64,000 nucleotides of DNA, taken from the NCBI RefSeq assembly GCF_030067675.1, contig NZ_JASJEV010000002.1:248001-312000 (forward strand), read 5' to 3'. The position numbers and the translations under genes were made by a program. Positions 13,688 through 17,538 of the stretch are shown here, in pieces; within the stretch, counting starts at the first letter, position 1; every line of letters begins with the position of its first letter. The notes under the pieces are model-generated. The model was given only the letters and a program-made list of their open reading frames with translations. It made no database searches and was not told the DNA's origin. This DNA is from Chelatococcus albus (GTDB taxonomy: Bacteria > Pseudomonadota > Alphaproteobacteria > Rhizobiales > Beijerinckiaceae).

Positions 13688-14422
13688 TCAGTTCCCCGCC
13701 GCGCCGGACGGTTTCAGACGCCGCCCGATATAGGCCATGGCATACCAGCAGACGATCGACCAGGCCGAACCGATCGACCAGCCGGCGAGCACGTCCGACG
13801 GCCAATGCACGCCGATGTAGACGCGGCTCACGCCGACGAGAACGGTCATGGCCAGGGCAACCGCCGTCAGGTAGAGGCGCAGGCCCGCATGCGCATGCGC
13901 CCGGGCGACGAGCGCCCCGAGCGTCAGGAAGGTGATGGCCGAGAGCATCGCGTGGCCGCTCGGGAAGCTTGCGGTGAAAACCTTCGCTGCATGCGGCACG
14001 AGATCGGGCCGCGCCCTGTCGAAGCCCATCTTCATCAACGTGCCGAGCAGCGCGCCGCCGGCTACGGACACGAGCAGAAGGAGCGCCGCGGAGCGCTGGC
14101 GGATGACGAGGAAATAGCCGCTGGCGACGAGCACCGCGAGGACGAGGACGGGGGTGCTGCCGAGCCCCGTGATGTCGCGCGCCGCCTCGTGCAGCCACGG
14201 GGGCCCGATCAGGCTGCGCTCCGCATCGGGCCGACGGAGAGCGAGGAGGATCGCCTCGTCCCAGCCCTGCCGCTCGCCGCGCAGCACGTCGCTCGCGAGG
14301 ATCCCGAAGAGCCCGGCCGATCCGAGGGCGAAGAGCGCGAGCAGCGGCGCCGGTCCCTCGCGCAGCAGCGCGCGGAAGCGGGCGATGGGGCCAGAACCCG
14401 GCCTGGAAGGAGCGATGATCAT
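13688..14422 (-). CDS. PAP2 superfamily phosphatase
   Basis: 244-aa membrane phosphatase of the PAP2 / lipid phosphate phosphatase family. The three catalytic boxes are present: KMGFDRARP (KX6RP) near residue 139, FPSGHAM near 160 with the catalytic histidine, and SRVYIGVHWPSD (SRX5H) near 201. Five or six hydrophobic helices surround them. Start at 14422 gives MIIAPSRPG; longer in-frame starts add a low-complexity leader. The substrate may be undecaprenyl pyrophosphate, phosphatidate or another lipid phosphate. Confidence 0.88.
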   Translation of the reverse strand: MIIAPSRPGSGPIARFRALLREGPAPLLALFALGSAGLFGILASDVLRGERQGWDEAILLALRRPDAERSLIGPPWLHEAARDITGLGSTPVLVLAVLVASGYFLVIRQRSAALLLLVSVAGGALLGTLMKMGFDRARPDLVPHAAKVFTASFPSGHAMLSAITFLTLGALVARAHAHAGLRLYLTAVALAMTVLVGVSRVYIGVHWPSDVLAGWSIGSAWSIVCWYAMAYIGRRLKPSGAAGN

Positions 14423-14663
14423 GCGAAATGTCGCGACAATGGATGCGAGCGCGCGTCCGCAAGCGGGACCCCGTGCCGGTCCATGTGGTGTCGCCGCCGC
14501 ACGAGACCAAGCGGCATGCCGCATGGAGGCCGGTCCGGGATGCCCGGAAGGATCGGAAGGGCCGCGAGGGCGGAAGCATCCACTTGGATCACCTGACGAC
14601 ACATGACAGATTGTGCGCTTTGAGAGAAGCTATGTTGCTGGCCGCGACACGGGCGAATGAGAG

Positions 14664-15407
14664 ATGGCCATGACCGGACAATCCGTTGACTACGGTCGGG
14701 GTGCGTTCGAATTCATCGAGCGCGTCTGCGCTTTGAGGAGCGCCACCGACGTGGTGCGGCTCTTTCACGAAGCCCTGGGCCGCTTCGGCTACGAAACCTT
14801 CATCATCACCGGGCTTCCGAACGGCGGCCAGCGGTTCGAGCAGCTCGTCCTGCTCAAGCACTGGCCGGCCGGCTGGTTCGATCTCTACACCCGCGAGGGA
14901 TACATCCTCGACGATCCCGTCGCCGTGCAGTGCCGCAGGACGGTGGAGCCCTTCGAATGGGCCTCGGCGCCCTACGATCCGCAGCGCCACCCGCGCTCGG
15001 CCGAGATCATGAGGCGCGCCGCGGATTTCGGCATGACGAACGGCCTGTGCGTGCCGATCCACGGCTTCGTCGGACTGGAGGCCTGCGTTTCCGCCGGCGG
15101 AAGCGATCTCGACCTGTCGCCGCAGGCGAAGGCGGCCGTGCATCTCATGGCCATCTATGCCTGCAACCGCGCCCGCCAGCTGCTCGCGCCGCTCGCCGAG
15201 CCGCGCAAGCCGCTCCTGACCTCCCGCGAGCGCGAGGTGATGACCTGGACCGCGATGGGCAAGTCCGCCTGGGAGATCGGCTGCATTCTGCGGATCTCCG
15301 CACCGACCGTGAACAAGCATGTCGCGAGCGCCATGCACAAGCTCGGCGCCGCGAACAAGACCCACGCCGTTGCCCGCGCCATCGAGCGCCGCGAGGTGAA
15401 CATCTGA
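14664..15407 (+). CDS. luxR: LuxR family acyl-homoserine-lactone-responsive regulator
   Basis: 247-aa quorum-sensing transcription factor. The N-terminal autoinducer domain (to ~165) has the HWPAGWFDLYTREGYILDDP segment with the conserved Trp, Tyr and Asp of the acyl-homoserine-lactone pocket, and FGMTNGLCVPIHG. The C-terminal HTH (residues ~176-240) is REREVMTWTAMGKSAWEIG followed by ISAPTVNKHVASAMHKLGA. It lies 100 bp upstream of luxI in the same direction, with a palindrome between them. Confidence 0.94.
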   Translation: MAMTGQSVDYGRGAFEFIERVCALRSATDVVRLFHEALGRFGYETFIITGLPNGGQRFEQLVLLKHWPAGWFDLYTREGYILDDPVAVQCRRTVEPFEWASAPYDPQRHPRSAEIMRRAADFGMTNGLCVPIHGFVGLEACVSAGGSDLDLSPQAKAAVHLMAIYACNRARQLLAPLAEPRKPLLTSREREVMTWTAMGKSAWEIGCILRISAPTVNKHVASAMHKLGAANKTHAVARAIERREVNI

Positions 15408-15424
15408 CAGTCGCATGCCTGTCA

Positions 15425-15442
15425 ATGGTCAAGGTTGACCAT
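15425..15442 (+). promoter_or_regulatory. Candidate lux-box-like operator before luxI
   Basis: The 18-bp dyad ATGGTCAA-GG-TTGACCAT has perfect 8-bp arms. It ends 65 bp upstream of the luxI start and 18 bp after the luxR stop, the usual place for a LuxR-type site. Its sequence differs from the vibrio CTGT-N-ACAG core, as alphaproteobacterial boxes often do. Confidence 0.6.
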
Positions 15443-15507
15443 ACGTAACGGCGTCAATCTGGAGCAGGCTGTCCCCCGCTCGGCACAGGGTCGAGGGGCG
15501 AGACGAC

Positions 15508-16149
15508 ATGATCCATGTCATTACCGCTGGCAACCGGTCGCTCTATGCGTCCGAATTGGCCCAGCACCATCTCATTCGCCACGAGATATTCGTCAAGGAG
15601 CGCGGCTGGTCCGCGCTCGATCGTCCGGACGGGCGCGAGCTCGATGGTTATGACACGGACGAAACCATTTACCTGCTCGCCCTCGATGAGGGGCGCGTGG
15701 TCGGGGGCCACCGGCTCTTTCCGACGACGCGCCCCCACATGCTCAGCGAAGTCTTTCCGGCGCTCGTCGCACAGAAGGTGCCGTCCGCGCCCGACGTCTA
15801 CGAATGGTCACGCTTCTTCATCGTGCGCGAGCGGCGCTCGGGCCGGACCTATCTGCGCCTGATGGCCGCCGTGCAGCAGCTCTGCCTCGAGGAAGGCATA
15901 TCCTCCATCACCGCGGTCATCGAGATGTGGTGGTTGCCGCGCTTCCATGAGGCGGGTTTCGTCGTCCATCCCTTGGGCCTGCCGCAGCCCGTAGAAGGCG
16001 TGGCGACGGCGGCCGTGATGATCGAGATTCGGGAGGAATCGCTCGCCAGGGTGCGGCAGCTCGGCGACCTGCCCGCGAGCGTGCTGGTCAGGCGCGGCGA
16101 CTCGCCGCCGCTGGTGCGACGGGACGGATACCGCCTCCCGGTTCAGTGA
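15508..16149 (+). CDS. luxI: Acyl-homoserine-lactone synthase
   Basis: 213-aa LuxI-family enzyme that joins S-adenosylmethionine with an acyl-ACP (or acyl-CoA) to make an N-acyl homoserine lactone. Conserved residues are visible in order: R24, F28 and W34 in LIRHEIFVKERGW, the DGYDTDET acid pair near 47, HRLFPTTR near 68, and YEWSRFFI near 97 carrying the Glu and Arg. Starts with ATG at 15508 after GAGGGGCGAGACGAC. Makes the signal that the neighbouring LuxR should sense; the acyl chain cannot be read from the sequence. Confidence 0.95.
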   Translation: MIHVITAGNRSLYASELAQHHLIRHEIFVKERGWSALDRPDGRELDGYDTDETIYLLALDEGRVVGGHRLFPTTRPHMLSEVFPALVAQKVPSAPDVYEWSRFFIVRERRSGRTYLRLMAAVQQLCLEEGISSITAVIEMWWLPRFHEAGFVVHPLGLPQPVEGVATAAVMIEIREESLARVRQLGDLPASVLVRRGDSPPLVRRDGYRLPVQ

Positions 16150-16431
16150 TCGTCCGCACAGCCCCCGGGGCGATCGCATCGGTTGAACGTCGCGCCCTGG
16201 GGCAACCGAGCGGTTGCCAGCGCCGCTTGCGATATGCGCCAGCGCGCAGGGCCGGCGCAGCGAAGGGCTGCGTCGGGGAGGAAACGTCCTTCGGCGCCGA
16301 ACGGCGCCGCGCTCCGTCCGGCCGGCTCTCCCGCCGGATCGCCATCCCAGCCTGAAGCGGCCGGGCGGAGCGACGTGCTCGCCTGAATTCCGGCCAGGGA
16401 TAAGTTGGGTCCTTCGATCAGGAGAAGGACC

Positions 16432-17448
16432 ATGCGGCGCAGCCATTTCAGCGAGGAGCAGATCATTTTGGTGCTGAAGGAGCACGAGGCGGGGATTAAG
16501 ACCGCCGAGCTGTGCCGCAAGCACGGGATCTCGGACGCCACGCTGTACAAGTGGAAGGCGAAGTACGGGGGCATGACGGCCCCGGAGACAGCGCGGCTTC
16601 GCACGCTCGAGGACGAGAACCGGCGGCTGAAGAGGCTTTTGGCCGAGCAGATGCTCGACAGTGCGGTGCTAAGGACCTCCTCGGAAGAAACTGAGCTCGC
16701 CTGCGGCGCGGTTCGCGACGGTCAAGCGCGTGATCGGCGATCACGGCTCCTCAGAGCGAAGAGCCTGCAGGCTGGTCGGGGTGGATCGGTCGAGCTTCCA
16801 GTACCAGCGCGCGGCGGAGGGTGATGCGGCGATCCGCACGCGCCTGCGGGAGCTTGTTAATGACCGCCGCCGGTTCGGCTCCGGCGGCTGGCGATCCTGC
16901 CGAGGCGGGAGGGGTTGAGGATGAACCTGAAGAAGGTCTACCGCCTCTACCGGGAGGAGCGGCTTGTTGTGCGCCGGCGCGGCGGGCGCAAGCGAGCGCT
17001 CGGCACAAGGGCGCCTGCGGCCATCCCGCAGGGAGCGAACCAGCCCTGGAGCCTCGACTTCGTGTCGGATGCCCTGAACGACGGCCGGCGCTTCCGGGTG
17101 CTGAACATCGTCGACGAATTCGCTTCGCGGACCTTCGGTTCACCCGCGAGTACCGGGCGCTCGTCGTCGACACCTCGCGCTCCGGCGCCCGCGTGGTGCG
17201 CGAGCTCAATGAGGTCATCGCCCGCCGCGGCCGGCCCTGCATGATCGTCTCGGACAATGGCACCGAGCTGGTCAGCCGGGCGATCCTCGGCTTCTGCGAG
17301 GAGGCCGCCATCGAATGGCACTCCATCGCGCCGGGCAAGCCGATTCAGAACACCTTCGTCGAGAGCTTCAACGGCCGCCTGCGCGACGAGTGCCTCAACG
17401 AAGCACGCCTTCTCCTCGCTTGCCGAGGCGCGATGGATCATCGAGGCT
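16432..17448 (+). pseudogene. IS3-family transposase ruin (orfA and orfB)
   Basis: orfA starts MRRSHFSEEQIILVLKEHEA, has the KHGISDATLYKWKAKYGG helix-turn-helix, and is broken by a one-base loss near 16669 before KDLLGRN. orfB pieces follow in changing frames: [60 protein letters not shown] (first catalytic Asp), [16 protein letters not shown] (second Asp), [19 protein letters not shown] (Glu), [13 protein letters not shown]. At least four frameshifts. The sequence stops exactly at the CCA end of the tRNA-Ser next to it; the terminal inverted repeats were not identified. Confidence 0.85.
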
Positions 17449-17538
17449 TGGCGGAGAGAGAGGGATTCGAACCCTCGATACGGTTTCCCGTATACACGCG
17501 TTCCAGGCGTGCGCCTTCAACCACTCGGCCACCTCTCC
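17449..17538 (-). tRNA. tRNA-Ser (anticodon GGA)
   Basis: 90-base class II tRNA on the minus strand. The acceptor is GGAGAGG/TCTCTCC with one G-T pair. The anticodon arm CACGC-CTGGAAC-GCGTG has GGA, reading UCC/UCU. The long variable arm (ATACGGG...CCGTAT) and GTTCGAATC T loop are present, and CCA is encoded. IS3-derived sequence abuts the CCA. It faces the other serine tRNA 12.8 kb away. Confidence 0.96.

Follow-up and report, generated by a model that had tools for sequence, protein, structure and literature searches.

Whether the short inverted repeat between the luxR and luxI genes of Chelatococcus albus serves as the operator of the adjacent LuxR receptor is the question raised by this locus, which we analyzed within a stretch of 64,000 nucleotides, hereafter called the window. 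The receptor gene (luxR, 14664-15407, plus strand) encodes an acyl-homoserine-lactone receptor and transcription factor with the recognition helix SAPTVNKHVASAMHKL and two domains (PF03472 and PF00196; Autoind_bind, 107.5 bits, and GerE, 61.3 bits), and is followed on the same strand by the acyl-homoserine-lactone synthase gene luxI (15508-16149; Autoind_synth, 72.8 bits), the proposed target gene, with all scores above the Pfam cut-offs. This LuxR is the sole Autoind_bind protein of the genome, which is 99.87% complete, and its relatives with solved structures, found by sequence, include chains of LasR, RhlR, CviR, SdiA, and TraR. Overall, our analysis indicates that the element in the window is a probable LuxR operator, well placed, with letters of its own and of a kind already known.

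The 18-mer ATGGTCAAGGTTGACCAT occupies positions 15425-15442 (plus strand), 17 bp past the luxR stop codon and 65 bp before the luxI start codon, and consists of two perfect 8-bp arms, ATGGTCAA and TTGACCAT, separated by the spacer GG, exactly as the first-pass annotation had described both the flawless arms and their place between the two genes. The conserved element reaches past the 18-mer, whose left end is overlapped by a GTCAAT motif, and the proposed LuxR box is a 20-bp element at 15424-15443 (plus strand) with the half-sites AATGGTCAAG and GTTGACCATA, complementary in 8 of 10 pairs and centered 74 bp before luxI. In keeping with a lux-type box, this element is an inverted repeat within the range of 18-22 bp, stands upstream of luxI and beside a two-domain luxR, and shares its position with the dyads of related luxR-luxI gaps. 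When the 100-bp gap was shuffled with its dinucleotides preserved, 117 of 20,000 sequences contained a perfect dyad with 8-bp arms and a spacer of 0-4 (about 0.6%), and 8 of 5,000 contained one with a spacer of exactly 2. Arm length by itself is unremarkable, since the whole window holds 42 perfect 8-bp-arm dyads with spacers of 0-4, some of them nested in one another; the palindrome is thus unlikely within this particular gap, and the arms on their own prove nothing. No second site within 3 mismatches of the 18-mer was detected in the window, its own reverse reading aside. Two further dyads flank the gene pair, namely a near-perfect one, CCAAGCGGCATGCCGCATGG, with 9 of 10 pairs at 14507-14526, about 137 bp upstream of luxR, and a perfect one with 8-bp arms, GGCAACCGAGCGGTTGCC, at 16201-16218, 51 bp past the luxI stop codon.

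The position of the dyad was compared with that in related luxR-luxI gaps, which were collected from 298 genomes of the family (best 30 places), genome contigs (57 loci), 385 genomes of the class, 397 genomes of the order, and 198 genomes of a neighboring family searched with the LuxR of L086. This yielded 150 loci in which luxI follows luxR at a distance of 60-230 bp, with several places represented twice; once gaps that were alike at 80% or more had been removed, 84 remained, one of them that of the window, so that 83 others were compared. A 20-bp dyad with at least 6 of 10 pairs was centered 60-76 bp before luxI in 51 of these 83 gaps (mean 23.5, sd 3.7, and maximum 35 in 200 shuffled sets of the 83 gaps), a zone that was picked post hoc, once many gaps had shown dyads near 66. 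Moreover, the best dyad of the gap fell in this zone in 41 of 83 cases, against 26.1 after shuffling (sd 4.2, maximum 39), and when the loci with a QRTAEEH helix were removed the dyads in the zone numbered 37 of 68, against 19.2 (sd 3.7, maximum 32). Among the same 68 gaps, the equally wide zones at 27-43 and 43-59 bp held 26 and 20 dyads, while the zone at 10-26 bp, into which the hairpins over the luxI ribosome site fall, was as rich (36 of 68) as that at 60-76 bp. From the counts relative to shuffles and to the adjoining zones, the region 60-76 bp before luxI is a preferred place for dyads, about half of the single dyads being expected by chance; the window dyad, at 74 bp, stands at its long end. 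The gaps of the nearest LuxR relatives, L034 and L084, lack a good dyad.

The comparison also showed that the dyad letters vary between receptors with different recognition helices. The half-sites of the window are paired with the helix APTVNKHV and those of Bradyrhizobium, TACTGGGAAA and TTTCCCAATA, with TQRTAEEHL, while a Methylobacterium-like group with the helices ERTVTAH and ERTITAH carries CCTGTAATTTCCTACAATA (in L012, CCCTGTAGGA and TCCTACAATA), boxes that resemble the lux box (CCTGTA..TACA). This group was so labeled because a Microvirga contig (L035) shares the gap of L008 and because the best LuxI matches include a plasmid record of Methylorubrum. In L147, from the neighboring family, the helix SERTVTYH accompanies TCCTGTAATT and TCTTACAGGC, and four loci with the helices AGTAEAH or PGTAEAH (L021, L022, L025, and L026) have dyads of the TTCCGGAA type. 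Similarity between helices was correlated with similarity between half-sites (Mantel r 0.587, reached in 0 of 2000 permutations) over 52 rows with a dyad, 14 of them of the QRTAEEH type, a value that is uncorrected for phylogeny.

The nearest helix group is defined by TVNK or TVEK and comprises 20 distinct loci, the window included, although several of its rows are close relatives (L177, L179-L182). GTCAAT is present in the same register in 15 of the 19 other loci, being absent from L024, L034, L084, and L171, and corresponds in the window to TGTCAAT at 15420-15426 (plus strand; ATTGACA on the minus strand). Fourteen of these 15 anchored boxes also share with the window AT at box positions 18-19, extended to ATA in nine. 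Inside this frame the letters diverge, with CC at positions 5-6 in 14 of the 15 and GG at positions 15-16 in 11 of the 15, against GT and AC in the window; the anchored relatives (L086, L167-L170, L172-L177, and L179-L182) mostly have an inner half-site of the form ATnCC..GGnAT and imperfect arms. The inner letters of the window, ATGGTC..GACCAT, therefore differ from those of its nearest helix group while the outer flanks are common to both, and the shared frame of GTCAAT and right-end AT is the best evidence that the window element descends from the same operator. The closest inner half-site among all relatives matches at 4 of 6 letters (L136 and L161). The first of these, L136, has the helix TERTVNFH, with N at the corresponding place of the window helix, and CTGTCAG half-sites that carry GTCA at positions 5-8 as in the window, an agreement that offers a lead; two cases prove nothing.

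Known systems place the element in a familiar context. The Bradyrhizobium genes of the compared loci (e.g., L036-L088), which we take to be BjaR/BjaI, have the same order of luxR then luxI and the same right-end ATA in the same register, with a dyad centered 64-68 bp before luxI, but differ in the half-site (TACTGGGAAA rather than AATGGTCAAG) and in the helix (QRTAEEH rather than APTVNKH). In Rhodopseudomonas palustris, rpaR, the repeat, and rpaI share one orientation as in the window, and the rpaI start codon is preceded by lux-box-like inverted repeats at -76 and -35 (PMC10305029); the repeat of the rpaI promoter is counted among the sites that LuxR homologues are known to bind (PMC10470506). 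The first-pass annotation had called the palindrome unlike the vibrio lux box, which is true of its letters, since only 5 of 20 agree with the Aliivibrio fischeri sequence and the Methylobacterium-like boxes of L012 are far closer to it, but not of its geometry, given that both are 20-bp dyads before luxI with GT and AC at positions 5-6 and 15-16.

Based on these comparisons, we consider it quite likely that the repeat is the operator, of the lux-box type, of the adjacent LuxR, although we infer four parts of this reading, namely that LuxR binds here, in which direction it regulates, the promoter, and which signal is involved. Once the cells are dense, LuxR would bind the signal that LuxI makes, and a LuxR dimer would then occupy the 20-bp dyad at 15424-15443 immediately before the luxI promoter, with each subunit on one half-site, recruit RNA polymerase, and establish a positive feedback on luxI. 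LuxR binds lux promoters at about -42, and by analogy with them luxI transcription might begin some 30 bp upstream of the ATG. A search of both strands of 14500-15700 revealed no sigma-70-like promoter; this is often so where a promoter depends on an activator, and it does not count as support. The earlier proposal that the palindrome is the best candidate for the LuxR target at this locus is thus favored by the sequence comparison, because of the position of the dyad, where dyads are enriched, and of the register that matches the nearest helix group.

The further suggestion that the 18-mer could be used to find other members of a regulon gained no support, yet there is no strong case against it. 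The 4.0-Mb genome contains a single exact site, and with a free spacer and up to 3 mismatches the 18-mer occurs at 12 sites, against 2 for a reversed-pattern control, while the 16-bp core within 3 mismatches occurs at no fewer than 110 sites, against 56 for the control, in a scan that is complete for sites within 2 mismatches; we put the excess down to a putative coding preference. Apart from the exact site, nine places match the core with at most 2 mismatches, and all of them lie under frames of at least 200 amino acids with third-position GC of at least 0.75, and a long frame also covers each examined site among the other free-spacer sites (10 of 11, C11:766163 being left out) and the three-mismatch core sites (4 of 100: L206, L207, L208, and L210). 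Such high-GC3 frames cover 71% of the window, so that the lack of an intergenic second site within 2 mismatches of the core in the genome is a weak test; the site of the palindrome itself is outside them, and it is included in the frames of at least 80 amino acids, which extend over 99.6% of the window. The test is further weakened because genuine sites of a regulon often show more degeneracy than this. Among 397 genomes of the order, a site with at most 1 mismatch was found in 38, the own genome included, and tblastn revealed no LuxR or LuxI match at 29 loci from other genomes (L099-L127).

Other explanations of the repeat have to be weighed against the LuxR operator. The palindrome could have arisen by chance or could serve some unrelated regulator, with LuxR binding elsewhere, as might be argued from the abundance of equally perfect dyads in the window, from the 9/10 dyad upstream of luxR, and from inner letters that come close to no relative's box; however, the rarity of a perfect dyad in shuffles of this gap and the agreement of its position and flanks with those of relatives make this explanation rather unlikely. 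Alternatively, the repeat could act in the luxR-luxI transcript as a terminator, an attenuator, or a processing site, and its arms can indeed pair over 7 bp around a 4-nt loop, a hairpin that appears in both the minimum-energy and the centroid fold of the gap. An intrinsic terminator would combine a G+C-rich stem with a T-run, but no T-run follows the repeat and no terminator-like site was detected in 14500-15700; besides, the gap folds no better than its shuffles (z -0.69, 57 of 200 folding at least as well), Rfam gave no match in 14400-16400, and the dyad of the Bradyrhizobium gap, TTTCCC/GGGAAA without a spacer, suits a protein-DNA contact better than a hairpin. RNA readings of the repeat are therefore disfavored, and we regard them as very unlikely. 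A separate observation concerns the last 45 nt before luxI (15470-15505 in the window), where in many of the 84 gaps a hairpin can form with the ribosome-binding purines in its 3' arm, as in CCCCCATTGAGGCTCAATGGGGG of Bradyrhizobium; the mean fold z over the 84 gaps is -1.8, falling below -4 in several TVNK-type loci, with -0.7 in the window, and control of luxI translation by such a hairpin is possible.

The flank of the box invites one more explanation, in which the box works both ways and LuxR also fires a leftward promoter that yields RNA antisense to luxR, its -35 element being ATTGACA (15426-15420, minus strand). The window and 14 of the 15 anchored relatives have TTGACA next to the box on the minus strand (L086 has TTGACT), a sequence well suited as the -35 of a promoter that reads back into luxR; for R. 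palustris, a review describes asrpaR, an antisense RNA of rpaR that is induced by RpaR and its signal (PMC3652290). Nevertheless, at a spacer of 15-19 the best match to TATAAT reaches 3 of 6 letters for the window and 0-3 of 6 for the 12 relatives that were tested, and this lack of a good -10 makes the antisense promoter a minority reading; furthermore, no promoter-like site appeared on either strand of 14500-15700, and R. palustris was not identified among the compared loci. We hold it highly improbable that LuxR drives such an antisense RNA here, and give as little credence to the broader idea of a BjaR/RpaR-like branch in which one LuxR box would serve two opposed promoters (luxI to the right, antisense luxR to the left) and the inner letters of the window would have changed with the helix. 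If the two-promoter arrangement were true, a single dyad would link a positive feedback loop for the signal to a negative one for the receptor.

The neighborhood and the relatives of the pair would fit its acquisition. The closest LuxI matches are L034 (61%) and those of Bradyrhizobium, Tistrella, and others (about 53-57%), the closest whole-protein LuxR relatives are L084 (58%) and L034 (57%), and no LuxI with at least 60% identity was found in plasmid records. Among genomes of the same genus, the LuxI match reaches 38% in G058 and 55% in G090, none being found in G018, and the LuxR of G090 (L011) is 36% identical to that of the window and has a different gap, with equal identities in L058 from Chelatococcus caeni. 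Apparent broken frames of an IS3-type transposase, recognized by eye, lie downstream of luxI at about 16432-17450, and these, together with the absence of a close luxRI pair in the listed congeners, would be consistent with an acquired pair.

Our literature searches found no published study of this LuxR receptor, and the one paper they gave on quorum sensing and luxI that involves Chelatococcus names a C. sambhunathii synthase among homologues; the present analysis makes a candidate operator concrete for this receptor. Besides, the collected gaps allow recognition helices and operator letters to be set side by side within one family, which is relevant to the choice of DNA by LuxR proteins and to the search for receptors free of cross-talk.
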